Shown piece after piece: positions 42,693 through 60,890 of a DNA stretch of 64,000 nt. Made by a program: the position numbers and the translations under genes. The first letter of the stretch is position 1, and every line of letters starts with the position of its first letter. The notes under the pieces were generated by a model. The model saw nothing but the letters and a program-made list of their open reading frames with translations. It had not been told where the DNA came from and searched no databases. This DNA is from Methylophilus sp. QUAN (GTDB lineage Bacteria > Pseudomonadota > Gammaproteobacteria > Burkholderiales > Methylophilaceae), in assembly GCF_015354445.1 (NCBI RefSeq), contig NZ_JADKYT010000001.1:1488001-1552000 (forward strand), in the 5' to 3' direction.

Positions 42693-42694
42693 GC

Positions 42695-44430: not shown

Positions 44431-44456
44431 TTGCACTTCTAGGCCTCAAAACATCG

Positions 44457-44696: not shown

Positions 44697-44786
44697 AGTC
44701 TGCCTTCATATTCGTAGATATCACGATGTATCATGGTATGAATTTTCTTAACTCAAAGATGCAGGCCAATTTGGACACTTGCCCCC

Positions 44787-45767
44787 ATGCCGCTATATAT
44801 TGCTGACGAACAAATTGAAAATACGTTAGGTACAACTGTTGCTTGTGCTTTAAAAGCAATCAAAATGGATATACAAGACCATTCCGTGACACCTAGCCTA
44901 GCTTTAGGGCTCATCAAAAAGTATCTGCAGCCACTGATGCCTGAAGCAGATAAAGACATTTTGGGTAAGTTAAAACAAGTCACTTGGGATGAGCTGCATT
45001 GGGCCTATCCGGAGATTATTTTTCGTGGAGGACAACCAACCGGTTTGCTTGCAGATATTGGTGTAAGTATTGATTTGATTTGTAGATACACCACGAACCC
45101 TCCTAGAGAGTTCCTTAGTCAAGAAACAGTAGAGGTCGGTAATTTTTTACTACTATGTGAGCACTTGAACATAAGAATAAGTGATGAGGTTCGTTATTCA
45201 AATAATCGAAAATTCGATGTATTCAATACCTGTAAATACTGCTGGAGGCAACCTGTGCCTGGAAGATTGATATGTTCATCGCATACTGCCGGCGATAAAC
45301 ATTCTCCTGTTGTATTAAGTGCTAAAAATGAATTGTCAGAAAACTCACCCTCAGCAAATTACAAAGAGAGTAAGCGTCAGAAACCCTTTTTCGATGAGTT
45401 CATAAAGTCGACGTTAAGTAGAGAAATATGGGAGTTTCATGAAAGCGGTTTCAGCTCACCAACTTTAATCCCATCGCACAACATTTTTAAATGGTTACTG
45501 GATAGAAGGCCGCACGTAGCGAACTTACTTGCTCAGCAGAATATGGTAGTAAATGATGACGAAATCATTGATAGCTTACTTTTGTTACTACATAGTCCAG
45601 AAGGCTTCACCAACACACAACTCGAACCTTATCAAAAAACCAATCATTTGATTAAAACAAACCCTGTATTGATTTGGCCGATGTTATTGCGTGCTGAGGC
45701 ATGGTTGCATGCACGAAAAACTTTGCGGAGTAATTGGGGCGGAAAAAGAACTCAGGAAAGAAATTGA
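44787..45767 (+). CDS. Uncharacterised protein with a Cys/His zinc-like motif
   Basis: 326 residues; family not recognised. A CKYCWRQPVPGRLICSSH motif (about residues 148-165) with C-x2-C and C-x3-H spacing suggests one bound zinc. The rest is helical, with an aromatic core (TWDELHWAYPEIIFRGGQPTG). The C-terminus ends in Trp/Arg-rich sequence (AEAWLHARKTLRSNWGGKR). It is divergent from alpA, so a replication, transfer or regulatory role for the element is possible, but this is only positional. Its stop lies 15 bp past the end of the XRE remnant, tail to tail. Confidence 0.65.
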   Translation: MPLYIADEQIENTLGTTVACALKAIKMDIQDHSVTPSLALGLIKKYLQPLMPEADKDILGKLKQVTWDELHWAYPEIIFRGGQPTGLLADIGVSIDLICRYTTNPPREFLSQETVEVGNFLLLCEHLNIRISDEVRYSNNRKFDVFNTCKYCWRQPVPGRLICSSHTAGDKHSPVVLSAKNELSENSPSANYKESKRQKPFFDEFIKSTLSREIWEFHESGFSSPTLIPSHNIFKWLLDRRPHVANLLAQQNMVVNDDEIIDSLLLLLHSPEGFTNTQLEPYQKTNHLIKTNPVLIWPMLLRAEAWLHARKTLRSNWGGKRTQERN

Positions 45768-45957
45768 TTCAATTCAATTTGTATTTGATTTAAAACCTTA
45801 GTCGGATCTGTGTCATTACTTGCAATCAGGTAGGATAACGTTAATAACGTGAGGGGATGTATACCAATTACTTTTGCTATTGCATCCACTTTTTCGACTG
45901 TAGGCGAGTATAAGCCACGCTCTAATGTACTCACATACGTACGACTGGAAATTTCAG
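45752..45957 (-). pseudogene. XRE-family regulator, 5' end lost at the mer junction
   Basis: The remaining C-terminal part reads [37 protein letters not shown], the end of a Cro/C1-type HTH with its typical TYVSTLERG recognition segment. Upstream the frame runs into merD sequence at about 45,955, so the N-terminal helices are gone. A shortened product from the internal ATG at 45934 could not form a full HTH. The cut marks the left edge of the mercury transposon remnant. Confidence 0.65.
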
Positions 45958-46224
45958 GCGCAGATCAGCAAGATGCGCCACCGCTTTATCGCTGTCTGCG
46001 GCATCCAGTGCCCGACACAGCCGTGTCAGCATGTCGAGGCTGATACCCGCTTCAAAGGCAGCCCACACGAAGCACAGCCGCTACAAAGCATCCGCATCGA
46101 ACAAGCCGTAGCCGCCTGCGGCGCGTTCCACCAGCCGCAACAACCCACGCAGCATATAGTCGCGCACGACATGCACGCTCACGCCGGCATCATGGGCCAG
46201 ACGGGACACCGTGTAGGCATTCAT
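45955..46224 (-). pseudogene. merD: Broken merD (mercury operon co-regulator)
   Basis: It starts at ATG 46224 as [20 protein letters not shown], a MerR-like HTH. At codon 48 the conserved Gln is replaced by TAG (46081-46083). The same frame then continues with [33 protein letters not shown] MerD sequence to about 45,955, where it is cut by the junction with the XRE gene. So it carries both a nonsense mutation and a 3' deletion. MerD normally competes with MerR at the operator and shuts the operon down after induction. Confidence 0.75.
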
Positions 46225-46333
46225 CGCACACCTCCTTTTGGTTGGTTCGCGGCAATGCACGTACCGTTTCGCCGAGTTCAATCCGCGCCGCGAGTCCGAT
46301 GCCGGCGCCGTGGGACATTGGGTCGATATCCGA

Positions 46334-46972
46334 TCACGGTGTTCTCGATGGAATGGTTTGCAACAGATGTCGATTAAGCTTCCGGCCCAAGCCGAAAGCC
46401 TCTTGGACGCTTACGATCTCTACTCCTTGATGCTCGGAGGCCCAATCTTCCGCCGTGAGGGCAGATGCAAAGAAATGCACATGACAACAAAAGGACTGAC
46501 GGATGTCGGCCGCTGCCTGCGGAAGTACCAGTGACACTGCGGCGTGGGCCGGTTCGACATCCCGTATCTCGTCGGGCGTGACCGTGAGCGCAACGGGTGC
46601 TCCGGTTGCAGCGCAATGCGACGAGACGCGGGCCGTACGGCCGATTAGCGCCGGAAACATCAAGGTGTCCAACGCGCACCAGGCATACAGACGGCGGCTG
46701 TCAATTTCGACGACATGCGAAGTCTCGCGCAAGGTGAGGCCATACCCGATGATGTTCCCATCGTTGTCGTATTCAGTACTGGTGGCCTGTTCGAGCACGG
46801 CGGCCACTCGCTCAGCGGGCCAGTCGAGACTCACGGCAAGCGTCGTTCGCGAAACCGGACGCCCCTTGACCAGTTCACGCAGCAGCGCGACAAACAGATC
46901 CCCAAAACCTTCGGGCCGATTGGCCGGCGCGAGACTTTCGACAATCTCGGTGATGTAGCGGGTGGGTTTCAT
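46334..46972 (-). CDS. merB: Organomercurial lyase
   Basis: 212 residues, the standard length. It cleaves the carbon-mercury bond of methyl- and phenylmercury, handing Hg(II) to MerA. The catalytic Cys99 and Asp102 are in [13 protein letters not shown], Cys162 in [11 protein letters not shown], and the structural Cys120 in VSSHCAATG. It follows merA by 12 bp with AGGAGAAGG before the ATG. With merB the operon gives broad-spectrum resistance, unlike classical Tn21. Confidence 0.95.
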
Positions 46973-46984
46973 AGCCTTCTCCTT

Positions 46985-48709
<1,725 letters not shown>

Positions 48710-49117
48710 TCAGCCGCGTTTAGGTGGCAGTTCGCAGCCGTCTGGCCCGCAACGGCGATGTGCCGGCGAAACGAAATCCAAAATCGACACGGCTAACATG
48801 GCGGCCAGACCGACATAGAGCAGTTTCTCCGCCATGGTGAACGTAGCGACGAGCACGATGACCGGCCCGACCATGCCAAGCAGACTGCGGTGCCACTGGC
48901 GATGGCTCAGCCAGCCAAGCGCGTTCGCGATGAAAGCGAGCACGGCAAACAGCGGCAGCAGTCGGCTGATGAACAGGCCCTCGTATTGGCTTAGAAAGCC
49001 CAGCCCGATGGCCGCACCGAAACTGGCGATGGCCGGAAAGCAGGCCGCGCAGCCCATCGCGGAAACAATACTGCCGAGTGCTCCGGTTTTATCTGCGATG
49101 CGTGTAATCAAACCCAT
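48710..49117 (-). CDS. merC: Mercury transporter MerC
   Basis: 135-residue inner-membrane protein with four hydrophobic segments. The Hg-binding pair is in MGCAACFPAIAS (about residues 21-32), with a second Cys pair near the end (RRCGPDGCELPP). It brings Hg(II) into the cell in addition to MerT. It lies between merP and merA as in Tn21. Confidence 0.93.
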   Translation of the reverse strand: MGLITRIADKTGALGSIVSAMGCAACFPAIASFGAAIGLGFLSQYEGLFISRLLPLFAVLAFIANALGWLSHRQWHRSLLGMVGPVIVLVATFTMAEKLLYVGLAAMLAVSILDFVSPAHRRCGPDGCELPPKRG

Positions 49118-49146
49118 GATGTCGCTCCCGGTTCTGGTTCAATGGC

Positions 49147-49422
49147 TCACTGCTTGACGCTGGACGGATAGCCCGCATCTTCGGTCGCCTTGGTCAGTTT
49201 CTGGACGCTGGTCTTGGCATCGTCGAAGGTGACGACGGCCTCACGCTTGTCGAAGTTCACGTCGGTCTTGCTCACGCCCTCGACTTTGGAGAGCGCTTTC
49301 TTGACAGTGATTGGGCATGAGGCGCAAGTCATGCCCGGCACCGCCAACTTGACGGTTTGGGTGGCAGCCCACACAGGGGCAATGACGGCGGCAAGGGCGA
49401 GGAAGACAAATAATTTTTTCAT
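49147..49422 (-). CDS. merP: Periplasmic mercury-binding protein MerP
   Basis: 91 residues from ATG 49422 (MKKLFVFLALAAVIAPVWA signal peptide). A longer frame to 49458 overlaps merT. The mature protein is one HMA domain with GMTCASCPITVKKAL; the two Cys bind Hg(II) and pass it to MerT. Confidence 0.95.
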   Translation of the reverse strand: MKKLFVFLALAAVIAPVWAATQTVKLAVPGMTCASCPITVKKALSKVEGVSKTDVNFDKREAVVTFDDAKTSVQKLTKATEDAGYPSSVKQ

Positions 49423-49435
49423 GGTGAACTCCTGA

Positions 49436-49786
49436 TTAATAGAAAAATGGCATGACATAGGGAAAGCCGAGCGCGACCAATACCAGCGCAGCCACGATCC
49501 AGAAAATTAGCTTGTAGGTGGTGCGCACCTGTGGAATCGCGCAGACCTCGCCCGGCTTGCAGGCTTGCGCCGGGCGATAGATACGCCGCCAAGCGAAGAA
49601 CAGCGCCGCCAGTGCTGCGCCGATGAAGAGCGGGCGGTACGGTTCCAGCACCGTCAGATTGCCGATCCAGGCACCGCTGAATCCCAAAGCGACCAGGACT
49701 AGCGGCCCAAGGCAACAGGTAGAGGCGAGGATGGCGGCAAGTCCGCCAGCGAATAGCGCGCCGAGCCCGTTTTGTGGTTCCGACAT
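49436..49786 (-). CDS. merT: Mercuric transport protein MerT
   Basis: 116 residues from ATG 49786 (MSEPQNGLGALFAGG), the family's normal start; the longer frame to 49852 would overlap the promoter. Three membrane helices. The Cys pair ASTCCLGP is in helix one and the second pair ACKPGEVC in the loop. It takes Hg(II) from MerP into the cytosol. It is first of the mer operon. Confidence 0.95.
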   Translation of the reverse strand: MSEPQNGLGALFAGGLAAILASTCCLGPLVLVALGFSGAWIGNLTVLEPYRPLFIGAALAALFFAWRRIYRPAQACKPGEVCAIPQVRTTYKLIFWIVAALVLVALGFPYVMPFFY

Positions 49787-49821
49787 GCGTTTATCCTTTT
49801 GAATTCGTAATAGATAGCGTA

Positions 49822-49852
49822 ACATTACTACCGTAGTCATGTACGGAGTCAA
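49822..49852 (-). promoter_or_regulatory. merT promoter with MerR operator
   Basis: On the minus strand, TTGACT (49847-49852) and TAATGT (49822-49827) are 19 bp apart, the long spacer typical of MerR-activated promoters. The dyad CCGTACATGACTACGG (49831-49846) between them is the MerR site. Hg-bound MerR untwists the DNA to allow transcription. merR itself starts 5 bp to the right, so it is divergently expressed and autorepressed. Confidence 0.85.
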
Positions 49853-49857
49853 GCGAT

Positions 49858-50283
49858 ATGCAAACTATTTTGGAGAATCTAACCATTGGCGCTTTTGCCA
49901 AGGCCGCAGGGGTCAATGTAGAGACCATCCGGTTCTATCAACGTAAGGGATTGCTGCCCGAGCCGGACAAGCCCTATGGCAGCATTCGCCGCTATGGCGA
50001 GGCGGATGTAACGCGGGTTCGGTTCGTGAAATCGGCCCAGCGGCTGGGCTTCAGCCTGGACGAGATCGCAGAGCTGCTGCGGCTAGACGACGGCACCCAC
50101 TGTGAGGAAGCCAGCAGCCTGGCGGAACACAAGCTCAAGGACGTGCGCGAGAAGATTGCCGACTTGGCACGTATGGAGTCGGTGCTGTCCGAACTTGTTT
50201 GCGCTTGCCACCTGCGGCAGGGAAATGTTTCTTGCCCGTTGATTGCGTCGCTACAAGGTGGCGCAAGCCCGGCTATGCCTTAG
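49858..50283 (+). CDS. merR: Mercuric resistance transcriptional regulator
   Basis: 141 residues. A winged HTH ([25 protein letters not shown]) is followed by a dimerisation helix and the three Hg ligands Cys79 or nearby (GTHCEEAS), and the pair [15 protein letters not shown] near 114-126. It represses the mer operon without Hg and activates it with Hg. The stop codon lies inside the transposon inverted repeat, as in Tn21. Confidence 0.95.
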
Positions 50284-50316
50284 CGTGCTTTATTTTCCGT
50301 TTTCTGAGATGACCCC
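50279..50316 (-). repeat. 38-bp terminal inverted repeat, Tn21 subgroup
   Basis: Read inwards on the minus strand, it begins GGGGTCATCTCAGAAAACGG and ends with GCACGCTAAG. By memory it matches the Tn21 repeat except for one base (A for G at position 7). It overlaps the merR stop by 5 bp. The 5 bp outside (ACATT, 50317-50321) would be the target duplication, but the partner end is missing. Confidence 0.85.
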
Positions 50317-50449
50317 ACATTGAATATACTTATTGGAGGCTTCGTTCACTCTTAATCACACTCAATGTAGATTGAGTTGGGCAATCTATTACAATCGACT
50401 GATTAAGAAATATAAAAATTACTGATTAAATTCATGAGATTTAGCGATT

Positions 50450-50710
50450 ATGAATCATATGATTCCATACCCGGCAAAGCTAGATAATCTCGAAAGCGGA
50501 TTCAGGCTGACCTTATTGGACTTTGACGATGTTTACGTTGAATCTGACCAACTTGAAAATGTCATACGGAGTGCTGAAGACACCCTACTTCGTTTGATTT
50601 TTAGCAGGATTAAGGAATCGAAATTGATACCGCCACCAGATCAATACTTAGAAATAGTTGATGAAAAACAAGTGGTTATGATTGATCCTATGGCTAGTTT
50701 TACTCTTTGA
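50450..50710 (+). CDS. HicB-like small protein beside the shufflon
   Basis: 86 residues of HicB-antitoxin type: IPYPAKL, then a strand-rich FRLTLLDFDDVYVESD and the helix VIRSAEDTLLRLIFSRI, followed by IPPPDQYLEI. No HicA toxin gene is next to it, and no DNA-binding domain follows. It sits between the mer transposon end and the first shufflon site, where R64-type pilus loci carry the recombinase gene rci. From memory, the C-terminal part of R64 Rci has a similar HicB-like stretch, so this may be a relic or a separate partner of a shufflon recombinase. An in-frame TGA at 50435 rules out a direct upstream fusion. Confidence 0.6.
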   Translation: MNHMIPYPAKLDNLESGFRLTLLDFDDVYVESDQLENVIRSAEDTLLRLIFSRIKESKLIPPPDQYLEIVDEKQVVMIDPMASFTL

Positions 50711-50872: not shown

Positions 50873-50891
50873 TTGCCAATCCGGTAGCTGG
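50873..50891 (+). repeat. Shufflon site 1
   Basis: TTGCCAATCCGGTAGCTGG; opens cassette A. Confidence 0.95.
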
Positions 50892-51113
50892 AAGAAAGCT
50901 ACTGGAACGACTTCAAATACAAGGAATGGTATTGAATACTCAGATATATCGATAAACTCTTGCTCTAGCAGCTTCTGTACAGCCAGAGCTGTATGCAGTA
51001 GTGGTAAGTCTTTAGCAACCTATTATTGTTTCTCAGGAGTCTCTTTTACCGGATCAAACTTTGTTGATTGCCAGGCTGCTAGCAATGCAATAGCAGTCGC
51101 ATATTGCAAATAG
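50874..51113 (+). other. Silent pilV cassette A
   Basis: 79 codons plus TAG, in frame with site 1: CQSGSWKKATGTTSNT..., then Cys-rich SCSSSFCTARAVC and ...AVAYCK. There is no start codon of its own; it is expressed only if inversion joins site 1 to pilV. The many Cys suggest a disulfide-held tip. Confidence 0.88.
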
Positions 51114-51115
51114 TC

Positions 51116-51134
51116 TTGCCAATCCGGTTTCTGG
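51116..51134 (+). repeat. Shufflon site 2
   Basis: TTGCCAATCCGGTTTCTGG; the variable codon encodes Phe. Confidence 0.95.
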
Positions 51135-51341
51135 CGAAAGGCACAGTCAAATATAAACAGTGGGGCCGTTGGAACATTTTGCCAACCAGGTGTGTATTGC
51201 AATAGAACATCAGGGCTCGGGGCATGCTCTAATGGTGCTAACGGGGCAGCATGGACAACTTCTATGCTTACTTGGGTTTCACCCTACTACAATAATTACG
51301 CCGGATATCCTTGTACTGGAGGTATTTTCTGGTTTAACTAA
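51117..51341 (+). other. Silent pilV cassette B
   Basis: 74 codons plus TAA: CQSGFWRKAQSNINSG..., FCQPGVYCNRTSG, ending GGIFWFN. It stops 2 bp before site 3. Short and aromatic at the end. Confidence 0.88.
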
Positions 51342-51342
51342 C

Positions 51343-51361
51343 TTGCCAATCCGGTGTTTGG
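51343..51361 (+). repeat. Shufflon site 3
   Basis: TTGCCAATCCGGTGTTTGG; last of the plus-strand sites. Confidence 0.95.
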
Positions 51362-51766
51362 AAAAAATCGGCCGGAAAAGCAAGTTCAATATGGTCTGCA
51401 TCTAATGCTGGGAACATGGTTGCTGATCAAACGTTAAGTGGAATTGCCCCTTGTAGAAACTCTGGAGGCGCATCTACTGGGAACACATTCATCAATATTT
51501 CAGTAGCTTCGGATTCTCAATCAATTAATGTTTCTGTCGGTGGAAATAGTTCAAGTTGTTACAATATGTACGCCTGCAATGGGTATGGATGCTCCAATCC
51601 AAATGGTGTTTATACATTTGTTGGATACTCTGCGTCGGGGCTTCAATATCAAAAATACATGGGACTTGGTGTGGGGGCCGTAAGTAATATATTCCTTACT
51701 AACTCAGGTTTCTCTGGTTCAATCGGCTGGCAGTCTGGCTCTAACGTCAGCGGTGTATACAATTAA
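51344..51766 (+). other. Silent pilV cassette C
   Basis: 140 codons plus stop: CQSGVWKKSAGKASSI..., then Ser/Gly/Asn-rich beta sequence (GGNSSSCYNMYACNGYGC) ending GSNVSGVYN. It converges on cassette D within the same site-3 to site-4 segment. The internal ATG at 51416 is not a likely start. Confidence 0.88.
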
Positions 51767-51806
51767 TTACGGAAAAAACCGCCATTAGTTTGGCGGTTTT
51801 TTTCTT

Positions 51807-52346
51807 TTAATACTCAATGATTACAGAGCCATCTTGCCCAGTAACACCCCCTCTCGGATTACCATCCGTTAAACATGCAGCACCGACGCCACCCACACCG
51901 CTATTCGGTGAATATAACTGTGCTGAGCCTATATATTGCCCAGAGTTAACCGTAATCCCTCCAGTAGCCCCATCTGCAGGCCTAGGATTCGATTGCCGAT
52001 TACCCCCAGCCCCACCATATGCATATATTAGATTTGAGAAGGATGAAGTCCCTCCGGGTTGGCCAACGGAATTGGCGCTATATCCTGGCGCCCCACCTAC
52101 ACCGATATTAATCGTATATGTTCCGGAAATACCGCTTAAGTAAACTGTAGCGTTTCCACCTTGGCCTCCGTTGCCTCCGTAATTGGGATAATAACGACAA
52201 CCAGCACCGCCGCCGCCAGCGCCAAATATTGTAATTTTGGCTTTTGAAATATGGGAAGGCACAGTCCACGTGCCACTAGAATAAAAGCTAACAACCGTTG
52301 GCCCGCCGTATCCACCAAATGCTGTTTTCCAAACACCGGATTGGCA
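51807..52346 (-). other. Silent pilV cassette D (Gly-rich, phage tail-fibre-like)
   Basis: 179 codons plus stop: CQSGVWKTAFGGYGG..., then TVPSHISKAKITIFGAGGGG and repeated GGNGGQGG / GVGGAPG stretches, ending DGSVIIEY. The W-x-VP...K.x.I.G.GGGGAG pattern is that of Gly-rich domains at phage tail-fibre tips. It is opened by site 4. Confidence 0.87.
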
Positions 52347-52347
52347 A
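52329..52347 (-). repeat. Shufflon site 4
   Basis: TTGCCAATCCGGTGTTTGG on the minus strand. It is followed outward by an 8-bp piece of a site in the opposite direction (TTGCCAAT at 52350-52357), giving the palindrome TTGGCAATATTGCCAA. Confidence 0.95.
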
Positions 52348-52366
52348 TATTGCCAATGTTATTGCA

Positions 52367-52921
52367 CTATCTTAGTTCCCACCACGAAATGATTCCGTTC
52401 CCAGCTAAAACACGATAGCTTGAATTATTTGGAACGGGAAATGTTACTGACCCTTGGAAACTGTTACTTGCGGCTCCGTCCTCAAATGTTATCTGTTGGT
52501 TATCAACATATACATTTATATCCCCCTGAGTACTTGAATAAAAGTATCTAACAATAACCGTAATTGTTTGGCCGGTATTATTAGAATAAGTACAGTTATT
52601 ACAACGGGCTGAAGATACATTTTGATAAGATTGGCTTGTTGCACCAAGTAAAGTCCAACCGGCCCATGTTCCATTGACTTTAGTCCGAGAGTAATTTTTC
52701 CCTGGATTTGTCATTCCATAAGCAATTTGAGTTTGCCAATGGCTACCTCCAAGGTGAGTATAGTTTTCAACAAAATACCAGTTACCATCACCATTTGGTG
52801 CATTAATCATTGCTCCACCATTGAAGCAAGATCTTGTACCAGGACCATCTGTTAGAGCATTTAAGTCTTTATAGCTCCAGTCTGTGCAATTAAAGTTTCT
52901 AAGCCAAACACCGGATTGGCA
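52367..52921 (-). other. Silent pilV cassette E (pyocin-knob-like)
   Basis: 184 codons plus TAG: CQSGVWLRNFNCTDWS..., FNGGAMINAPNGDGNWYF, then a KVNGTWAGWTLLGA motif and a C-terminal beta part ending IISWWELR. The NWYFVE...YSRTKVNGTWAGW pattern resembles knob domains of phage/pyocin tail fibres. Longest cassette. Confidence 0.87.
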
Positions 52922-52922
52922 A
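52904..52922 (-). repeat. Shufflon site 5
   Basis: TTGCCAATCCGGTGTTTGG, minus strand, identical to sites 3 and 4. Confidence 0.95.
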
Positions 52923-52927
52923 GACTA

Positions 52928-53215
52928 TTAAGATAGCCAAATACCTGCAGATATGCAGTAATAACCGGAACCTAAATAACTCATACCCGTATTCGTTGGG
53001 AAATAACCGTTTCCAACATAGCGAGATCCATTCCAATTCGCGTTTGAGATGAATACGAAACTCGCACTTCCATTGCCACTACCCGCACCACCTCCAAGAC
53101 AAATCATATCGCCTGAAGCTCTTTGGCAATAGGTTTGTGCCTTACATGTTGATCCAGGCAGGCCTTTATTAAAACCTGCACCATCACCGGCTATTTTCCA
53201 ACTACCGGATTGGCA
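52928..53215 (-). other. Silent pilV cassette F
   Basis: 95 codons plus TAA: CQSGSWKIAGDGAGFN..., with CKAQTYCQRASGDMICLGGG and a terminal YYCISAGIWLS. It stops 5 bp before site 5. Confidence 0.87.
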
Positions 53216-53216
53216 A
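53198..53216 (-). repeat. Shufflon site 6
   Basis: TTGCCAATCCGGTAGTTGG, minus strand. Confidence 0.95.
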
Positions 53217-53223
53217 GATCGTT

Positions 53224-53565
53224 CTAGCGGTAGACAATCAGTGAAATGCCCGCTCTATCAGCGAAGCCACCAATATTGGCGTTATAAACAGATACATTTA
53301 AGCCAGTTGCTGACTCCGCATAAATATTCCCGATGTAACCATATCCATTGCTTGTACCGTTTGTGTATGAGTAATTAGTAACATAGTTTGAGTCAGGTAA
53401 AGGATTCTGAAAATACACTGTGTAAACGCCAGCAGAACTTCTCCATATTGATGAAACGTTATAGCTTGACCTAATAGCACACCATCCTGACGGGCAAGAC
53501 GTACCATTAAAGTTTACCCACGCGGACGCACCTCGCGTTGCTTTTTGCCAGCTACCGGATTGGCA
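53224..53565 (-). other. Silent pilV cassette G
   Basis: 113 codons plus stop: CQSGSWQKATRGASAWVNFN, CPSGWCAIRSSYNVSS, ending ISLIVYR. It is paralogous to cassette H: same length, shared first third, diverged end. Confidence 0.88.
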
Positions 53566-53566
53566 A
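53548..53566 (-). repeat. Shufflon site 7
   Basis: TTGCCAATCCGGTAGCTGG, minus strand. Confidence 0.95.
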
Positions 53567-53571
53567 GCATG

Positions 53572-53913
53572 TCATCTGAATGCTACAAAATTTGCCCAAA
53601 AAGCATCGAAATAACCAGGTGTAGGATCATTAACACCTCTTGAATGTACTGTTGCATACGCGCTTGTTTGACTAGAAATCTCAGTCGCGAATGCACCGCC
53701 AGAACCACCACTGCCGACATTCCATGATATTGCATAATAATCAGGTAATAAATTCAAATAAAAAATCGTGTAGTTTCCAGGGGAATTCCTGACTACACCA
53801 GAAACATTAAAGCTTGATCTAATTGTGCACCATCCTCCAGGACAATAAGTACCATCAAAATTAACCCATGCCGATGAACCTCTTGATGCTTTTTGCCAGC
53901 TACCGGATTGGCA
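53572..53913 (-). other. Silent pilV cassette H
   Basis: 113 codons plus stop: CQSGSWQKASRGSSAWVNFD, CPGGWCTIRSSFNVSG, ending WANFVAFR. A duplicate of G that has diverged after about residue 55. Confidence 0.88.
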
Positions 53914-53914
53914 A
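53896..53914 (-). repeat. Shufflon site 8
   Basis: TTGCCAATCCGGTAGCTGG, minus strand. Confidence 0.95.
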
Positions 53915-53916
53915 GA

Positions 53917-54213
53917 CTATGGACATGACGCTTTCTTATATATTCCCCCACCCAGTCCTATTGGAATCGAGCTAGGGCAATAAGCTGAATTACTTGCATG
54001 AATTAGTCCGCGGGTAGATATACCATAGCCACAATATAATGCGTTATCACCACCCGTTCCTGAATAATAAACATAACTTCCATCGAAGCCACCTATGAAG
54101 AATGGGCCACCATATGATGTTGCGCAAATTAACGCGTCAGGCCAACTTCCAAGGCCCTTAAGCTGAGCGACACCCATACCCGAGTAGGATTGCTTCCATA
54201 CACCGGATTGGCA
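53917..54213 (-). other. Silent pilV cassette I
   Basis: 98 codons plus stop: CQSGVWKQSYSGMGVAQLKG, Gly/Tyr-rich GGFDGSYVYYSGTGGD, ending IYKKASCP. Confidence 0.87.
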
Positions 54214-54214
54214 A
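54196..54214 (-). repeat. Shufflon site 9
   Basis: TTGCCAATCCGGTGTATGG, minus strand. Confidence 0.95.
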
Positions 54215-54219
54215 TGCAA

Positions 54220-54414
54220 TTAATAGCAGAAGTAAAACGAGTTATACCCGCCGGCAGGGTCATTCCCATATCCAAATCCGTATATCTGCTGATTTGTAGC
54301 ACAGCTGCAACTTCCGGTATTCCGATTAGGAATCCTACAACCGAGAACAGAGTTAATAGAATACCCACCTTGTACTGCACCCGCTGAACTCTTTAACCAG
54401 CTACCGGATTGGCA
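54220..54414 (-). other. Silent pilV cassette J
   Basis: 64 codons plus TAA: CQSGSWLKSSAGAVQGGY, GSCSCATNQQIYGFGYG, ending NSFYFCY. The shortest cassette. It shares the C-x-C + SGFCxG-like ending style of K and L. Confidence 0.87.
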
Positions 54415-54415
54415 A
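54397..54415 (-). repeat. Shufflon site 10
   Basis: TTGCCAATCCGGTAGCTGG, minus strand. Confidence 0.95.
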
Positions 54416-54420
54416 TGAGG

Positions 54421-54681
54421 TTATTCGCACGTATAAGTACTGGTTGTACTAACTTGAGCAGTAATGCCACATGTTGTAGAAACACCTGCAACTGAAACTG
54501 CACTTCTTCCAGATGGGCAAGAGCAACCACCAGTTACTCTGTTTACATTAACGCATCGGTTAGGTCCACAAATCCCAGCACTTGTTGTAGTGATGATGGT
54601 GTATCCACCATTACCTAACGAGAAAAAGCCCCCACTATTTGTTACGGTTCCTGAAGCCTTTTGCCAGCCACCGGATTGGCA
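54421..54681 (-). other. Silent pilV cassette K
   Basis: 86 codons plus TAA: CQSGGWQKASGTVTNSGG, CGPNRCVNVNRVTGGCSC, ending STTSTYTCE. It lies next to the expressed cassette in the same direction. Confidence 0.87.
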
Positions 54682-54682
54682 A
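54664..54682 (-). repeat. Shufflon site 11
   Basis: TTGCCAATCCGGTGGCTGG, 2 bp past the current pilV stop. Confidence 0.95.
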
Positions 54683-54684
54683 GA

Positions 54685-56067
54685 CTATCGACAGGTGACA
54701 ATGGCACTAACTGTTGAGGCTCCGGCTGCTCCAGAGTTCTGACAGTAAAAAGCTGTACTTCCTACCACGCCGCTAGCGCCATAATTTCCTACGCAAAAAC
54801 CGGTGATTCTTGTACCTGTTGTACAAGTTGCCTGCGTCACACAATTAGCTGAGCCGCACGATGACATGACAGTTGATGAGGACTGGACACCGTTCACTAA
54901 ACTTCCACCTGAACCGGAAGCCTTTTTCCAGCTACCGGATTGGCAAGAAAGTATCAAGCCGTTTGCATCGCTTGCAATTCGACCGTTTGGAGAGCACGCA
55001 GTGTTTTCTGTGGCGGTCGATGTAATCTGCAAATTACCTGACAATTTATCGATGCTCGCGGTGCCGGGAATAGTGATACTTCCATTGTCAGCGAGTGAAA
55101 GTGGTTGCCATGCTCCAGCTCCGTTGCATGTGTATGCGCGAGATCCAGAACCCGTAGTAGGTGTTCTAACTACTCTGGTCTGACCAGTGTTTGCGGCGTT
55201 GCAAACTGGCAGAGAAGCAAATGTCGCAACTGGGTCACCCCAATACGGGGATGAACCACTAGGAGCGGTCCAAACATTACTTACGCAAGATAGGAGAGCA
55301 CCTGTTGAATCACGGCCTAATGCGCCATTTGTTGTACATGCTGATCCACTAGTTTGAATCGAGCCTGCTCCCATGAGGATCGGGGTATTCATCGTATTCA
55401 GCCCTGGATTACCAGGCACAGCATCACGATAGAGCGTTGATGAAAGGTTCCCACCCGAGGTAAACCAAAGGGCCATGAATGAATGGCCAACAGATAGGCT
55501 AACAGCACCAGTTGTTAAACCATCACATTTCAGCCCAAGGTTATTTGTGTTTGTGAAAGCACTGTAGGGTGCAGTGGTTAAGTCGACGGACCAGCCGCCC
55601 ATTGACCCACGAATTTGGCCTGTGTTGGTCGAATAGATACCACCACCCTCACCTCCAACCGTAGCGGCAATCTGACCTAGAGTGAGGTCATTGATTGTTG
55701 AACCACCTTCTGTCGCAACAAGCGCCATCAATTTGTTAGCTGTTGGCTCAAGAACGAGAACGCAGGTGTCCTGTTGTTTCTCATTCTTGACGTTAAAGCC
55801 CGAATTCAGGTAGCCACCGGCAATCAAGTCACTCACCCGAATCAATGCCGGATTTGTTGCTGATGCAACGCCTGTGAGAGTCGCGTAATTGTCTTTAATG
55901 TATTCTTGAGCAGCTTGCCCTACCGCTTTGATGTGTAGTGCGTTAACAGATGCACGTGTATCTTCAGATACGTTATCCTGCAACCTCACGATACCCATAA
56001 TCACTGTGCTCAGGATACCCAGGGAAACGATAATTTCCAGTAAGGTTAAACCTCTTTGCTTTTTCAT
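54685..56067 (-). CDS. pilV: PilV-type minor pilin/tip adhesin with variable C-terminus
   Basis: 460 residues from ATG 56067, which has AAGGA upstream and gives the prepilin leader MKKQRG before LTLLEIIVSLGILS; an upstream ATG at 56085 lacks this spacing. A constant part of about 374 residues holds two copies of a module (C...NG...D..G..LSC-x-S-x-x-W), ending at C250-W272 and C364-W386 in the longer numbering. The second copy contains shufflon site 12. The last about 80 residues (SGSGGSLVNGVQSSST..., SAIVTCR) are the present cassette. In R64, PilV C-termini bind recipient lipopolysaccharide in liquid mating. The same role is inferred here. Confidence 0.9.
   Translation of the reverse strand: MKKQRGLTLLEIIVSLGILSTVIMGIVRLQDNVSEDTRASVNALHIKAVGQAAQEYIKDNYATLTGVASATNPALIRVSDLIAGGYLNSGFNVKNEKQQDTCVLVLEPTANKLMALVATEGGSTINDLTLGQIAATVGGEGGGIYSTNTGQIRGSMGGWSVDLTTAPYSAFTNTNNLGLKCDGLTTGAVSLSVGHSFMALWFTSGGNLSSTLYRDAVPGNPGLNTMNTPILMGAGSIQTSGSACTTNGALGRDSTGALLSCVSNVWTAPSGSSPYWGDPVATFASLPVCNAANTGQTRVVRTPTTGSGSRAYTCNGAGAWQPLSLADNGSITIPGTASIDKLSGNLQITSTATENTACSPNGRIASDANGLILSCQSGSWKKASGSGGSLVNGVQSSSTVMSSCGSANCVTQATCTTGTRITGFCVGNYGASGVVGSTAFYCQNSGAAGASTVSAIVTCR
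54928..54946 (-). repeat. Shufflon site 12 (expression site inside pilV)
   Basis: TTGCCAATCCGGTAGCTGG; encodes CQSGSW at PilV residues 381-386 counted from 56085. It is the exchange point between the constant and variable part. Confidence 0.95.
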
Positions 56068-56077
56068 TAAAAAATCC

Positions 56078-57187
56078 TTATGCATTTCGAATTAACTGAT
56101 ATGCGGCTGAATGGGTTGGTACAGCTTTCAAAGCGTCGGTTTTATCAACAATTCCTTTTTTCACTAACGCAACGGCAGATTTAGCAATGGTCATTGAAAC
56201 GCCATCTTCAGTCCTATCCAACGCCGTTTGTAGCGCTTCTGGGTTGCCGAAATGTTGTGAAAACTCTCTTTTATGATTTGCCAATAGATCAACAGCCAGC
56301 GCGTATGAAGTTCCATCCTTCCGAGGGATTAACACTTGATTGATTACCCCTAACAGGCAACCGGAGAGTGATTGCAATTTAGACTCACGCTCCATACCGT
56401 TAAAGAAACCCATCATCTTTGTGATAGTCCCTACAGCACTATTAGCATGTAAAGTTCCAATTACAAGATGTCCGGACTCACCCGCAAGTAAAGCTTGCTC
56501 GGCAGTTTCACGGTCACGAATTTCACCAATAACGATCACATCAGGGCGTTGGCGCATGGAAGAGCGCACGCCGTCCGCAAAGGACTGGCAATCTGTTCCA
56601 ATTTCACGCTGTGAAAAGAAAGCATGATCTGGCTTGAACTCATACTCAATAGGATCTTCTATCGTGATGATGTGGCAATTGCGAGACATGTTGATTTCAT
56701 TCAGGATGGATGAAAGCGTTGTTGTCTTGCCAGAACCTGTAGCGCCAGAAATCAAAATAATGCCACCCTGCCCTTCAGTAAGAAGGTTGATACCAGCTGG
56801 TAACCCAATCTCGACTAATCGTGGCGGTGTTTTAGGAATTCTGCGAATTGCAATTCTTGTTTGATCACCACCCTTTGCCAAATAGACATTCACTCGCAAA
56901 CGACCGCCACTGAAATTGAATGGGCGATTAATATCTTGTATGGTTAGATTTTGAGTATAGTTTTCATCAATTTTTGATACGAAATTGAGAATATCTTCTT
57001 GTGAAATTGGGTCATCAACGAGCGCTACTTTTTCCCCTTCAATTTCATATTTGATTTGATTAGCGTTAATCCAGCCCTTAGCTGTTCTAATCATTATTGG
57101 CTCATTAGTGCCTATTTGAATGTCTGAGAAATTGAGCTTGCTTGATGCCAATTTCAGAATCAGGTCGATTAAGTAGTTGTCTTCCAT
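56078..57187 (-). CDS. PilT-like type IV pilus ATPase
   Basis: 369 residues. Walker A is ISGATGSGKTTTLSSIL (about residues 144-160), the Asp box ITIEDPIEYEF, Walker B VIVIGEIRDRETAEQAL with the His box LVIGTLHANSAVGT. These are the PilT/PilU hallmarks of hexameric retraction motors. R64 has only PilQ in its pil operon, though its TraJ is PilT-like. It lies between pilM and pilV; its stop overlaps the upstream pilV frame. It could allow pilus retraction to bring mating cells together. Confidence 0.87.
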   Translation of the reverse strand: MEDNYLIDLILKLASSKLNFSDIQIGTNEPIMIRTAKGWINANQIKYEIEGEKVALVDDPISQEDILNFVSKIDENYTQNLTIQDINRPFNFSGGRLRVNVYLAKGGDQTRIAIRRIPKTPPRLVEIGLPAGINLLTEGQGGIILISGATGSGKTTTLSSILNEINMSRNCHIITIEDPIEYEFKPDHAFFSQREIGTDCQSFADGVRSSMRQRPDVIVIGEIRDRETAEQALLAGESGHLVIGTLHANSAVGTITKMMGFFNGMERESKLQSLSGCLLGVINQVLIPRKDGTSYALAVDLLANHKREFSQHFGNPEALQTALDRTEDGVSMTIAKSAVALVKKGIVDKTDALKAVPTHSAAYQLIRNA

Positions 57188-57190
57188 TTT

Positions 57191-57649
57191 TTATTTACCC
57201 ATCATGACTAAGGCCGAGTTTGGAATACCTGCTGGCAATGCAATTCCGGTATCCAAACCATTAGCGGAAATCAACCTTCCTGTAGCAGGGCTTTTTGTGC
57301 CTATCAGTGCAGAGCTGTTTGATCTCTCAAAGATTTTGTTTAAAGTGCCACTGGTTAAAGTTGTAGTTGAGTACACATAAACCAGTGAACCGTTTACCCA
57401 ATTTGTCCAGTTAGCGTTTCTGATATATCCAGGCTCCCAGTAAGGTGCCAAATCAGTATCTGCAATCGTTCCTGTAGCACTTGGGTTGGCGCTCAGATAA
57501 TTTGAAACCGCGCTTCTATAGGCGATGAAATTCAAAGCCGATACGTCCGCGGCCACCATGTATGTTTCATTTTCCTTTTTGGGGATTTCTACTACTGAAT
57601 ACACGGTAGCGATCGAGATAAACGCAAGAACCAAAAATGTCGGAAACAT
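57191..57649 (-). CDS. pilM: PilM-like thin pilus protein
   Basis: 152 residues: an N-terminal helix (MFPTFLVLAFISIATVYSVV) and a small domain with ALNFIAYRSAVSNYLSANPSATGTI and a Trp-rich ANWTNWVNGSLVYVY segment. This matches R64/PAPI-1-type PilM as I recall it. It is an inner-membrane-anchored, periplasm-facing accessory of unknown precise role. It overlaps the upstream ATPase stop by one base and ends 3 bp before the next ATPase. Confidence 0.7.
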   Translation of the reverse strand: MFPTFLVLAFISIATVYSVVEIPKKENETYMVAADVSALNFIAYRSAVSNYLSANPSATGTIADTDLAPYWEPGYIRNANWTNWVNGSLVYVYSTTTLTSGTLNKIFERSNSSALIGTKSPATGRLISANGLDTGIALPAGIPNSALVMMGK

Positions 57650-58590
57650 TAATTTGCCTTACTAGGGTTAAACAACATTTTGTTTTTTTGAAATTGGACT
57701 GCGTTCTCAATTTGCTCCCATTTCCGCAAGCGGATATTGTTGCGAATACCGGAATCATCACTTTCGGAGTTAATCCATAAGAAATTGAGCTTTGGCGCCT
57801 TTGGCTCACCGATCAGTTCCTGGTGAATAACGCATGCCAAGCCATTAGCCAATAGACTTGAGTAATCCTCAGAGCCAGAATTTGAACCACTTGCCAAAGA
57901 GTAAATACGCTCAATAGCCGTAGCAACGGAGTCAGCATGTGTTGTACAAATGACTAGGCGACCATTGATAGAAGCTTTTAACGCCTCCAGAGCAGTTTCC
58001 TGATCACGCACTTCACCCAAAAATATGATGCTTGGAGCCCATCGTGCGGCTTTACGGCAAGCGTTCGCAAATCCACCTTGATCAACCCATGTCTGATAAC
58101 AGAAACCCTCTCCATGTGGGCCTTCCAACGGCATTTCAGGAGGGTCTTCAATGGTGATAGCTACACCGCCTTGTTCATTCAATCTGGACTTAATGATTGC
58201 AGAAGCGGTTGTGGTTTTACCTTGACCGTAGGCACCTGCCACGATGATTAACCCGGTTAGACCTTTGGTCATGAGCAATTCAATGTAATTTGGATGAATA
58301 TCGATTTGAGAGAGGTTCAAAGCGACATTCGGCATTCTTCTCAAAACAAATACAGTGTCCTCAAGGGACTGCAAAAGTGCTACGCGATAAGCGATTTCAG
58401 CATGACGAATTGAGAATTCATCTTTCGAGTCCTTGTTGAAAGCATTCATACACAATTCGCGAATTTCAGATAATTCCTTTTCGTAAACTGCAGGAGCGGG
58501 AATTGGATCATTTGTTCCAGGAACGCCAGTGAACAAAGCACCAGCTTTTCCGAGGTAAATATCTTTCAAGGCATAATCTTTGAGTAGCAT
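57649..58590 (-). CDS. Second PilT/VirB11-type ATPase
   Basis: 313 residues. The P-loop is atypical, IVAGAYGQGKTTTASAII (about residues 117-134). ITIEDPPE, IIFLGEVRDQETALEAL and LVICTTHADSVATAIERI follow as Asp, Walker B and His boxes. The N-terminal half differs from PilT. It sits between pilS and pilM, where R64 has pilT (a lytic transglycosylase). It is diverged from the PilT-like gene next door, so it is probably a specialised motor or a regulator. Confidence 0.82.
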   Translation of the reverse strand: MLLKDYALKDIYLGKAGALFTGVPGTNDPIPAPAVYEKELSEIRELCMNAFNKDSKDEFSIRHAEIAYRVALLQSLEDTVFVLRRMPNVALNLSQIDIHPNYIELLMTKGLTGLIIVAGAYGQGKTTTASAIIKSRLNEQGGVAITIEDPPEMPLEGPHGEGFCYQTWVDQGGFANACRKAARWAPSIIFLGEVRDQETALEALKASINGRLVICTTHADSVATAIERIYSLASGSNSGSEDYSSLLANGLACVIHQELIGEPKAPKLNFLWINSESDDSGIRNNIRLRKWEQIENAVQFQKNKMLFNPSKAN

Positions 58591-58675: not shown

Positions 58676-59203
58676 TTAGTTTGTGAAAACCAATGTAGTG
58701 CCAGTATCGCAATCAGCAGCAGCCGTAGCTGTTGGGATTGGGAATGTTGTTCTGGCGGCCGCAGAGCCAGCCTGAACAGATGTCCAACCTTGAGCGCCAG
58801 TTACCAGTGGGATGCAAACGTCTACAGGGATGTTTGTGACGGTAACGTTGAAGCTTGTGCCAGTTGAAGCAACGACAATCGTGCCATTGAGTTGATGAGT
58901 CAGCACGTTAGGTGTAGCAGATGTATCTACGGTGATACTGGTTGGAATGCGTTTAGCAGTTACCAGAATAGTGTTCAGGTTAGTTCCAGATGTCCCGTAT
59001 GATTGCTGGCCACTCCACATGTTTTTCACGGCAGCGCGGATCGATGCAATGTCTGTGGTCAATTGAGTTGAGTTGTTAGTGGATGAAGCAGAGTTGTTGA
59101 GCTTCAGAGCACCGACGATAATCACCGCCATGATGGTAAGGGAGATGATCAATTCCAGCAGGGTTACGCCAGCTTGATACTTTGATTTGATATTTTTAAT
59201 CAT
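58676..59203 (-). CDS. pilS: PilS major pilin, copy 2
   Basis: 175-residue type IVb prepilin. The leader ends KYQAG before VTLLELIISLTIMAVIIVGA, giving the Gly-Val processing site and the long N-terminal helix. Two Cys near the end (VPVDVCIPLV, ADCDTGTTLVF) make the D-region loop. It is about nine-tenths identical to the copy upstream; only the leader and scattered sites differ. Tandem duplication of the main pilus subunit. Confidence 0.88.
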   Translation of the reverse strand: MIKNIKSKYQAGVTLLELIISLTIMAVIIVGALKLNNSASSTNNSTQLTTDIASIRAAVKNMWSGQQSYGTSGTNLNTILVTAKRIPTSITVDTSATPNVLTHQLNGTIVVASTGTSFNVTVTNIPVDVCIPLVTGAQGWTSVQAGSAAARTTFPIPTATAAADCDTGTTLVFTN

Positions 59204-59261
59204 ATATTTCTCTTTTTAGATGTGATTTCAAGATCGGGGCCGAAGCCCCTACCCGATTACA

Positions 59262-59786
59262 TTAGTTCGTGTACACCATCGTTGTGCCGGTTGCGCAATC
59301 AGCTGCAGCGGTTGCTGTTGGGATTGGCAATGCTGTACGCGCAGCTGCAGAACCTGCTTGAACTGATGTCCAACCTTGTGCTGTTGTCATTAATGGGATG
59401 CAGACATCAACTGGAATGTTGGTTAATGTCACTGTGAAGCTTGTGCCAGTTGAGGCAACAACCACAGTACCATTCAGTTGGTGTGTCAACACGTTAGGTG
59501 TAGCCGAAGTGTCGGCGGTAATGCTGGTTGGAATACGCTTCGCAGTTACCAGAATAGTGTTCAGGTTAGTTCCCGATGTACCGTAAGAACCTTGGCCGTT
59601 CCACATGTTTTTCACCGCAGCCCGGATGGATGCAATGTCAGTTGATAACTGCGTAGAGTTGTTGGTGGACGAAGCTGAGTTATTCAGCTTCAGAGCACCG
59701 ACGATAATCACCGCCATAATGGTCAGCGAGATAATCAATTCCAGCAGTGTTACGCCAGCTTGTTTCTTGTTTAAATTAAACTTCAT
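59262..59786 (-). CDS. pilS: PilS major pilin, copy 1
   Basis: 174 residues. The processing site is in NKKQAGVTLLELIISL and the two late Cys are conserved. It follows pilR by 24 bp, the R64 order, and the second copy follows after 58 bp. No prepilin peptidase (pilU) gene is in view, so maturation needs a host or distant enzyme. Confidence 0.9.
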   Translation of the reverse strand: MKFNLNKKQAGVTLLELIISLTIMAVIIVGALKLNNSASSTNNSTQLSTDIASIRAAVKNMWNGQGSYGTSGTNLNTILVTAKRIPTSITADTSATPNVLTHQLNGTVVVASTGTSFTVTLTNIPVDVCIPLMTTAQGWTSVQAGSAAARTALPIPTATAAADCATGTTMVYTN

Positions 59787-59810: not shown

Positions 59811-60890
59811 CTATCTGTAAGCACTTTGCATGATCGTTGACATTTGAAGCTCCATATCAATGAGCCCACCAACCATGAACGCGATAAAAAGACCCACGAT
59901 GAAGATGCTTACTCCAAATACCACCTTCATCATTGAATCAATGCTTTCTACTGATTCAGCAATCCACTCACGGCCTAGAATTTCAAGGGCTTGATCGAAA
60001 CCTGAAAGCCTTGCGTAAACCGTCAAATCGTCAATGATTTCTTCGTCAGGGAAACCATATCCAGATTTACTCAAAGCCTCACCAGGGTTCATGCCTGATT
60101 TCATTCCACGAAGGCACGCGTTAATTCGTACCTTCAACCATGGGTGTGCACCGTACGAAAGCTTGTCCAGTGCGTTTTCAACCCTTACGCCCGCTGCTAC
60201 CAATGTTGCGAAACTAATTAACCAGGTACTCCCTTGCAGCATCCGATAGATGCTGTATGGAGGAAACTTGTCTAATTTGATACGCAGTCCACCAGTCCAG
60301 CGAGGTAATGAAATTAAGAAAGCTGTAATTAACCCTACAATGGCAATCGCGATAATCAAGACCCAATCGCGAGAAAAATTCGCGAAATCTACTAAATATC
60401 TTGCAGTCCCTTGCCACTTGTCAGGACTGACAACGCGAGAGAAGTTTGGAATGATCTGGAAACTAAACAGATACAAGACTGCAAAGCCCATACCAAGAGT
60501 CACTACTGGATATGCGATGCCGGAAAACACTGCTTTCTGAATGCGTTTTTTCGCAGCCATTACTTCGCTTGCGGAAGTCATCGATTCAAACAAATCGCCT
60601 GATTGCTCACCTGCAGCCAGAATCATCTGCTCATCTTTTTCTACCCAGCCTTCAATAGCTTCTGAAAAACGTTTACCGTTCTTTAATTGCAGCATCCAGC
60701 TGGCCAAGGCCATGCTCAAAGGAGACTTGCCACGACCAGACTGCACTTGACGCTGATGAATCGAATTCAAGGCTTCAATAATGGCAACACCGTTGCTCAA
60801 CAGCTTGGATAACTTCATCCAAAGTCTGCGGCGACCTGACTTATCAATACGGAAAAGCCAGGTATTAATTTTTAGCTCTAGCTCTTCCAT
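59811..60890 (-). CDS. pilR: Inner membrane pilus assembly protein (GspF/PilC family)
   Basis: 359 residues with two GspF domains, the first near residues 25-150 and the second near 220-345. Three membrane helices lie at about 125-150, 170-195 and 325-350. AAGEQSGDLFESMTSASEVM and LAAGVRVENALDKLSYG are the repeated helical signatures. It is the platform that couples PilQ to the growing pilus. It overlaps the pilQ stop by one base. Confidence 0.9.
   Translation of the reverse strand: MEELELKINTWLFRIDKSGRRRLWMKLSKLLSNGVAIIEALNSIHQRQVQSGRGKSPLSMALASWMLQLKNGKRFSEAIEGWVEKDEQMILAAGEQSGDLFESMTSASEVMAAKKRIQKAVFSGIAYPVVTLGMGFAVLYLFSFQIIPNFSRVVSPDKWQGTARYLVDFANFSRDWVLIIAIAIVGLITAFLISLPRWTGGLRIKLDKFPPYSIYRMLQGSTWLISFATLVAAGVRVENALDKLSYGAHPWLKVRINACLRGMKSGMNPGEALSKSGYGFPDEEIIDDLTVYARLSGFDQALEILGREWIAESVESIDSMMKVVFGVSIFIVGLFIAFMVGGLIDMELQMSTIMQSAYR

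Follow-up and report, generated by a model that had tools for sequence, protein, structure and literature searches.

The enterobacterial textbook case of a pilV shufflon is that of the I-complex plasmids R64 and TP114, which combine a thin pilus, 7–8 in-frame alternative PilV C-termini and an Rci-type invertase. Their sites have a GTGCCAA core and alternate in orientation (+-+-), most segments bear two ORFs, and rci is intact and co-oriented with pilV. Seven C-termini are given for R64 in one passage of the literature (PMC5430464), and eight for TP114, which the relevant part of a 2022 report calls the first characterised shufflon to exceed seven and describes as locked by rci deletion (PMC9045228). 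An inward-pointing shufflon has already been described for Pseudomonas koreensis P19E3, in an account whose pertinent section reports variation in long reads (PMC6158609). Nor, going by its sequence, is a pilV/rci shufflon new to the methylotroph group, being present on plasmid pMsip01 of Methylovorus glucosotrophus SIP3-4 (NC_012970); the first-pass annotation of the DNA studied here had described its host as one in which thin-pilus shufflons are little discussed.

We describe here a 64,000-nucleotide stretch of Methylophilus sp. QUAN DNA (the window) that, in our judgement, quite probably holds a twelve-cassette, inward-pointing pilV shufflon in which a transposon-like unit with mer genes has divided rci, leaving inversion likely off and pilV likely fixed on one of twelve C-termini.

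The array, its cassettes and the pil operon

A pattern scan of the window finds twelve exact copies of the 19-bp site TTGCCAATCCGGTNNNTGG within 50873–54946, three on the plus strand and nine on the minus strand, with a thirteenth match, carrying two mismatches, at 30235. Shuffled sequence is expected to give 0.62 matches at up to three mismatches, and 13 were reached in none of 100 shuffles; across the 3.15-Mb genome, these twelve are the only exact copies. The comparison with the R64 consensus that the first-pass annotation proposed holds for the 12-bp right arm, TCCGGTNNNTGG, which is the R64/TP114 arm and is present in 12/12 sites, but not for the 7-bp core, TTGCCAA, which is one base away from the R64-type GTGCCAA.

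The sites run +++---------, in two converging stacks (three + on the rci side, nine - on the pilV side), and all twelve aim at one internal position, as in an inward-pointing shufflon. Since both orientations occur, inversion is possible in principle; the layout is not the alternating one of R64, and the remaining rci stub is convergent with pilV. Between the stacks lies a terminator-like hairpin of 14 pairs (51771..51804), the top terminator-like site of a region that has 11 such sites versus 5.2 in shuffles. Neither the converging stacks nor the broken recombinase gene had been mentioned in the first-pass annotation.

After every one of the twelve sites the pilV reading frame stays open (C-Q-S-G-x-W...) for 64–184 aa, whereas only one of the 24 other frames from the same sites is open for at least 64 aa. 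By site scan and frame reading, the plus-strand units, each a site with its cassette, occupy 50873..51113 (79 aa), 51116..51341 (74 aa) and 51343..51766 (140 aa, half of a central double unit). The minus-strand units begin with the other central half at 51807..52347 (179 aa, Gly-rich, tail-fibre-like) and continue with 52367..52922 (184 aa), 52928..53216 (95 aa), 53224..53566 (113 aa, tail-fibre-like; phrog_11355, E 1e-12), its paralogue 53572..53914 (113 aa; phrog_11355, E 2e-6; 65% identity over 51 aa), 53917..54214 (98 aa), 54220..54415 (64 aa), 54421..54682 (86 aa) and, currently joined to pilV, 54685..54946 (86 aa). Judged from these coordinates, cassette stops fall 1–19 nt ahead of the next site, the two central cassettes excepted, much as the first-pass annotation had said. 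Ten of the twelve cassettes were scanned with Pfam and ten with PHROGs, giving a Pfam match in one of ten and a tail-fibre family match in four of ten, one of these merely at E 0.0017. The cassette at 51807..52347 matches PF21722 (E 2e-11), phrog_863 (E 3e-17) and the tail-fibre family phrog_6202 (E 2e-9), and that at 52367..52922 matches phrog_18834, of unknown function (E 5e-13), and the tail-fibre family phrog_26525 (E 0.0017). No window cassette matched any cassette of other loci at E<=1e-4 (122 compared).

The cassettes abut the pilV constant region (54947..56085, minus strand), which has a prepilin leader and a Shufflon_N domain (PF04917, E 1e-27; PF07963). Upstream on the same strand follow a T2SSE-family pilus ATPase (56078..57187; 48% to the corresponding pMsip01 ATPase), pilM (57191..57649; PF07419), a second T2SSE-family ATPase (57649..58590; 57% to its pMsip01 counterpart), two pilS-type major pilin genes in tandem (58676..59786; PF08805 in both, 81% DNA identity), pilR (59811..60890; T2SSF profile match), the ATPase gene pilQ (60890..62416; 53% to pMsip01 PilQ) and pilP with pilO (62443..64000; TIGR03021, PF06864), the last extending beyond the window. 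A PilN-like secretin (Secretin profile; L014) comes after pilO, outside the window. Homology identifies these genes as a type IVb thin-pilus operon, carried by a putatively conjugative element. The core of the first-pass annotation, a 12-site shufflon with 12 alternative PilV C-termini, is thus borne out by twelve exact sites, twelve in-frame cassettes and the neighbouring type IVb pilus operon.

That the repeats might instead be a product of chance or misassembly, with no shufflon at all, is barely credible. Shufflons are indeed hard to assemble, as sections of two reports state (PMC5430464; PMC6158609), and the order and orientation given here may reflect one variant or a consensus; but the site count lies beyond all the shuffles, every cassette is in frame and relatives share the layout, and as regards the existence of the shufflon the artefact reading is refuted.

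A split rci gene and the mer unit

A query with the Rci of IncK2/Z plasmids matches the genome in two separate places, the N-terminal part at C1:1682911-1683780 (57%, E 1e-101) and the C-terminal part immediately left of the shufflon (32%, E 4e-4). The query gives no second Rci-like gene in the assembly, the only other matches at E<=1 being two weak integrase matches (E 0.007 and 0.019). Because residues 1–291 (72.5%) and 290–373 (51%, E 9e-22) of pMsip01 Rci align to separate pieces, the break is placed at about residue 291. The C-terminal stub (50447..50710, plus strand; 87 codons and a stop), which corresponds to the second of these segments and encodes a HicB-like domain, still adjoins the shufflon, in the position expected for an inward-pointing layout, convergent with the constant gene. 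No intact rci stands beside the array: the gene is in two pieces, with the transposon-like unit and 144 kb between the stub and the catalytic half. The truncated frame (1682926-1683819) is open for 297 aa, retains the conserved R/H/R/H/Y positions in alignment and still has an HTH gene upstream. A 443-aa integrase at 34224-35555 might have been the invertase, but was set aside: its PF00589 match is sub-threshold, its match to Rci is 23%, and the three plasmid records that it matched do so across no more than 80% of its length, which also counts against such a role.

The interruption in rci is an 8,695-bp transposon-like unit (41752..50446) with istA/istB and merB/A/C/P/T/R-type genes, the left of two copies. 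Pfam recognises IstB, an rve/Mu transposase, MerB and a MerA-type reductase; the merC/T/P/R-type names are taken from plasmid matches. The second copy, at C1:1683794-1692493, is a direct repeat of the first, 99.97% identical over 8,700 bp, and each rci half is joined to one end of a unit copy. The ends of the unit are CGCGGAATC.../...GATTTAGCG, and each of the two insertion points is bordered by a short direct repeat, ATTAT towards rci and ACTTCT at the outer flank. Since only 3 of the 8,700 aligned positions differ, one of them in the flank, the duplication would be recent. Among the matches listed from the plasmid collection (at least 5000 records), the best covers 50% of the unit (the mer genes) and none exceeds 80%.

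The two copies bracket a 145-kb plasmid-like element carrying Rep3, ParB, a TraI_2 relaxase, a TraG/TraD-type coupling protein and Trb/VirB genes, and this element appears to be integrated in the chromosome. Its likely origin is a conjugative plasmid that entered the chromosome via the mer unit as a cointegrate, duplicating the unit around the 145 kb, although an assembly join through the repeat may be the origin of the apparent integration. A search of the 21 remaining genomes in the genus gave no empty chromosomal site (left flank 0/21, right flank one weak match in 21), and so it is solely from the repeats that the cointegrate history is read.

The intact sites and cassettes fit a recent loss of shuffling and also continued use. 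Cells lacking the mer insertion could coexist with those sequenced, and one might suppose that an undivided rci survives on other copies of the plasmid or element and keeps the cassettes shuffling, as the integrity of all twelve sites and the recency of the duplication would allow. We regard such a mixed population as highly unlikely, since the Rci query finds no rci in the assembly other than the split one, and rci would retain one copy of the unit even after the two repeats had recombined.

The severed domain and the state of the array

By sequence profile, profile–profile comparison and fold, the severed C-terminal domain of Rci resembles HicB antitoxins. It is present in all intact Rci sequences aligned (eight in one alignment, four in another), and our literature search found no paper describing it as HicB-like. 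The likeness is one of domain resemblance, and no antitoxin or HicA-binding role is claimed for it. A fold of full-length Pusillimonas minor Rci, predicted from 4 sequences, was left out because of its poor quality (pLDDT 47).

In the ancestral system, Rci would have recombined a - site with a + site, inverting all in between and preserving the all-inward order; by inversion arithmetic, a far-stack cassette would reach pilV in one inversion, and two would suffice for any of the rest. In mating, each C-terminus would presumably have served as an adhesin with its own type of recipient surface. The present protein would stop after residue ~291, keeping its catalytic residues and losing the HicB-like domain, whose presumed role is to assist the binding of a second monomer at the left arm, which is not conserved. 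The array would then probably be static unless intact Rci were supplied in trans; with rci split and no second Rci-like gene returned by the query, it is likely locked on one cassette.

The truncated frame, with R/H/R/H/Y retained, could nonetheless have some or altered activity. It is conceivable, if unlikely, that the shufflon is live, the catalytic part alone still acting, perhaps less selectively, and producing inversions together with deletions between direct sites. The open frame with its catalytic positions and upstream HTH gene would suit such an enzyme, and artificially symmetric sites yield excisions too in a model cited in one part of PMC11852207, which suggests that loss of a gating domain might broaden activity and not abolish it. 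Yet the lost domain is shared by all the intact Rci sequences aligned and has been proposed in the literature as the mediator of the cooperative binding that underlies inversion-only recombination, and nine head-to-tail cassettes persist in a stack that an excising enzyme would pare. A locked array thus remains the reading that we prefer. The first-pass annotation had proposed high-diversity recipient selection during conjugation; as a function of the present day this is unsupported, because rci is split and the Rci query gave just its two halves and two weak integrase matches. The same annotation had named the lack of a working recombinase among the things that would overturn its reading, and on sequence grounds that lack is largely real.

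More tentatively, and as a proposal that we think has a lesser though real chance of being correct, Rci invertases may be tyrosine recombinases with a captured HicB-antitoxin-like domain as inversion-only gate; the mer transposon would here have removed exactly that domain, leaving the catalytic core beside an undamaged set of twelve one-way pilV cassettes. Such a natural gate-off would either freeze the array or let direct-site deletions begin. The exact mechanism of Rci inversion is "not fully elucidated" (PMC11852207), and the HicB-like identity, together with a natural allele without the domain, makes it testable.

Comparison with related arrays

With its 12 sites, the window array is the largest among the pilV-type arrays examined (8 convergent and 4 enterobacterial; the next has 9). 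These are no census but a small sample, given that 2479 plasmid records have an Rci-like match. Its repertoire exceeds the seven C-termini of R64, as first proposed, and also the eight of TP114, taking the figures in the passages cited above (PMC5430464; PMC9045228). Longer Rci arrays, with 13 and 17 sites, do occur, but they attach to a short, secreted-looking, non-PilV constant protein and were for that reason rejected as bigger pilV arrays. Inward order is found in 12/12 loci with rci convergent to the constant gene (the window counted; eight PilV-like, four not) and alternating order in 4/4 enterobacterial loci. This count leaves out L076 (2 sites, uninformative), L044, L045, L047 and L069 (contig or record ends) and the PilV-only loci L019, L020, L022 and L023 (exact GGT-form site absent). 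Rows with 3–4 mismatches lying off the arrays were dropped from the site strings (L046:6582, L068:15941, L083:11461 and one in L076), and site 8572 of L068, at the pilV end with 4 mismatches, was not counted intact; all of these leave the inward order unbroken. A random-orientation product for the layouts was set aside because the loci are related.

Within the family (187 genomes, own included), no sites were found beyond the genome's own array and one lone site. In the order survey (399 genomes, own included), 10 had a site match, clustered in the own genome and G260 only, the other eight holding 1–3 scattered sites. By its coordinates, G260 is the MAG of L044/L045.

Among named systems, pMsip01 has the best Rci match of the plasmid matches listed (73.6%) and shares with the window a collinear pil operon with pilV, a convergent rci, inward-pointing sites and a methylotroph genus; it differs in being a free 77-kb plasmid with an intact, 380-aa Rci and six sites, of which two have one mismatch and four have two against a 17-base pattern. 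Pusillimonas minor YC-7-48 (NZ_JACJUU010000001, L046) likewise has rci convergent with a Shufflon_N gene and sites (+++++++-) that each open CQSxxW, but its rci is intact (385 aa) and its sites number eight, four of which have G for the T that follows GG, and one an additional mismatch. Plasmid 2 of P. koreensis P19E3 (CP027479) shares the 19-bp site format (core TTGCCAA, right arm TCCGGTNNNTGG) with every site facing inwards, and likewise has one-way cassettes, a convergent rci of the same Rci type and an HTH gene upstream; unlike the window, it has 17 sites (6 +, 11 -), an intact rci and a short, secreted-looking constant gene that is not pilV, with no annotated pil gene within 20 kb. Against these systems, the window array is, as far as its genes can be read, a known kind of shufflon found in a naturally broken state: a large pilV repertoire of inward-pointing, one-way cassettes that lies outside the classic enterobacterial model, on an element that a mer unit has, it appears not long ago, deprived of its shuffling enzyme.

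A twelve-site pilV array and its setting

The recombination site TTGCCAATCCGGTNNNTGG occurs in 12 exact copies at 50873-54946, with no further exact copy across the 3.15-Mb genome. The first-pass annotation had assigned an in-frame C-terminal cassette to each of 12 exact sites, and this holds throughout: all 12 open, in pilV phase, a frame that starts C-Q-S-G-x-W and stops after 64-184 aa, and 1 of the 24 other frames at the same sites stays open for at least 64 aa. The cassette presently joined to pilV (54685-54946) encodes 86 aa. Adjacent cassettes within 53224-53914 are paralogues (65% over 51 aa), which suggests cassette duplication. Phage tail-fibre families are matched by 4 of the 10 cassettes scanned, one of them weakly, which suits the part that PilV variants play as adhesins in TP114 and R64 (PMC9045228).

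Both a Shufflon_N domain and a prepilin leader are recognised in the constant part of PilV. Upstream lies a type IVb pilus operon comprising pilM, S, R, Q, P and O, a secretin and ATPases. The pilS-type major pilin genes form a tandem pair here (58676-59203 and 59262-59786; 81% DNA identity), whereas a single pilS is annotated on pMsip01, a Methylovorus plasmid with a pilV/rci shufflon. Four loci for PQQ-dependent alcohol dehydrogenase exceed the cut-off in this genome (0 of 14 control genomes), which fits a methylotroph. The first-pass annotation called thin-pilus shufflons little discussed in such hosts; one paper came up for shufflons with methylotrophs, to judge from its abstract a broad review, but the pMsip01 shufflon had already been annotated.

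An invertase split by a mer unit

An intact Rci query from an E. coli IncK2/Z plasmid matches this genome in two places: residues 2-290 align at C1:1682911-1683780 on the same contig (57%) and residues 294-374 at window positions 50447-50698 (32%); further matches at E ≤ 1 are only weak ones. The Rci of pMsip01 places the break more sharply: its residues 1-291 match the first piece at 72.5% and its residues 290-373 the second at 51%. An 8.7-kb unit bearing istA/istB and mer genes, merB included, lies between the pieces and is present twice in direct orientation (window 41748-50447 and C1:1683794-1692493; 99.97% identical), with 145 kb between the copies. With the unit's ends taken as CGCGGAATC.../...GATTTAGCG, short direct repeats are seen at both insertion points, ATTAT in rci and ACTTCT outside. 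The whole unit was not found among the plasmid-collection matches listed. A small HTH regulator gene (C1:1682691-1682918) lies directly upstream of rci, as one does, often overlapping, in the inward-pointing class (L067, L070, L071, L079-L083).

The 145 kb encode a Rep3 initiator, ParB, a TraI_2-type relaxase, a TraG/TraD-type coupling protein, Trb/VirB genes and the pil operon, and on this gene content are read as a conjugative plasmid, putatively integrated as a cointegrate via the istAB and mer unit. Whether the element is integrated or free, one unit copy remains within rci. Just beyond the left copy, integrase and MobA-like relaxase genes (34224-37246) perhaps mark another mobile element.

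The surviving N-terminal frame of rci retains the catalytic residues of the alignment, stops six codons past the break and lacks the C-terminal domain. That domain, absent from Cre, is believed to underlie the cooperative binding by which a second monomer occupies the non-conserved left arm (PMC11852207). Together with TP114, in which rci deletion left a single variant (PMC9045228), its loss here makes a locked array the most likely reading. The main rival is a truncated enzyme with altered activity. The severed domain (50447-50710) is HicB-antitoxin-like by sequence profile and fold, as are the Rci C-termini of L046 (Pusillimonas minor), L065 and others. This identity, and a natural break of rci at the domain boundary by a mer unit, both seem to be new.

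Inward-pointing layout among shufflons

From rci to pilV the sites read +++---------. The nine nearest pilV lie on the minus strand and face away from it, the three distant ones lie on the plus strand and face it, so that all twelve converge on a single internal position (51767-51806), which contains a terminator-like hairpin. If recombination is confined to opposite sites, as for Rci (PMC11852207, PMC4176322), each inversion would exchange the inner parts of both stacks and retain the inward order. Breadth-first counts for two to seven cassettes give 2, 4, 12, 48, 240 and 1440 reachable orders, that is, 2 x (n-1)!, which for 12 cassettes would amount to ~80 million orders versus only 12 expressed proteins. 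The present order allows 27 first inversions; three cassettes would reach pilV in one inversion and the other eight in two.

A two-block inward string is seen in all 12 loci examined in which rci is convergent to the array's constant gene (the window, pMsip01, Vogesella, Chromobacterium, Pusillimonas and seven Pseudomonas plasmids), with the strand switch at differing positions. Eight of these constant genes are PilV-like, called by profile in the window, by pilV annotation in pMsip01 and by scanning in six others, four of which exceed the Shufflon_N cut-off; Vogesella (E 1.5e-4) and Chromobacterium (E 4e-5) match below it. In the remaining four (P. syringae pMG4, P. sp. GXZC, P. koreensis p2, pIHMA87), the frame preceding the outermost site has just 59-111 aa and never passes that cut-off, three carry a secretion-signal-like MLKLTSxLVLSA stretch, and p2 has no annotated pil gene within 20 kb of its rci match. 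These short frames, in place of PilV, carry Rci-type arrays of 5, 8, 13 and 17 sites (L080/L090 on p2, L071, L079, L082), which may be shufflons diversifying a secreted non-pilin protein. Rci-like matches occur in 2479 plasmid records, of which a few are covered here; among the pilV-type arrays examined, the window's 12 sites are the most, followed by pTTS12 with 9, two of which have three mismatches.

In three Pseudomonas megaplasmids (L070, L081, L083) a central unit bears paired TTGCCAATCCGGTATTATT or near-identical sites that open just six codons, as though they marked where the array turns. L076, a Burkholderia contaminans plasmid, has two TTGCCAA-core sites, but its rci points the same way as pilV; it may be intermediate between the inward-pointing and the alternating layout.

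The locus is classed as a pilV shufflon with inward-pointing layout and a broken invertase. All four enterobacterial loci examined alternate (+-+-) with rci co-oriented, and their core is GTGCCAA, as opposed to TTGCCAA in the convergent class (TTGTCAA in Chromobacterium). Repeats that "all pointed inwards" were already reported for P. koreensis P19E3, the strain carrying p2, in which reads gave two major shufflon variants (PMC6158609). The two innermost cassettes of the window occupy one common central unit, the rest being one-way, and this two-cassette unit resembles an R64 segment.
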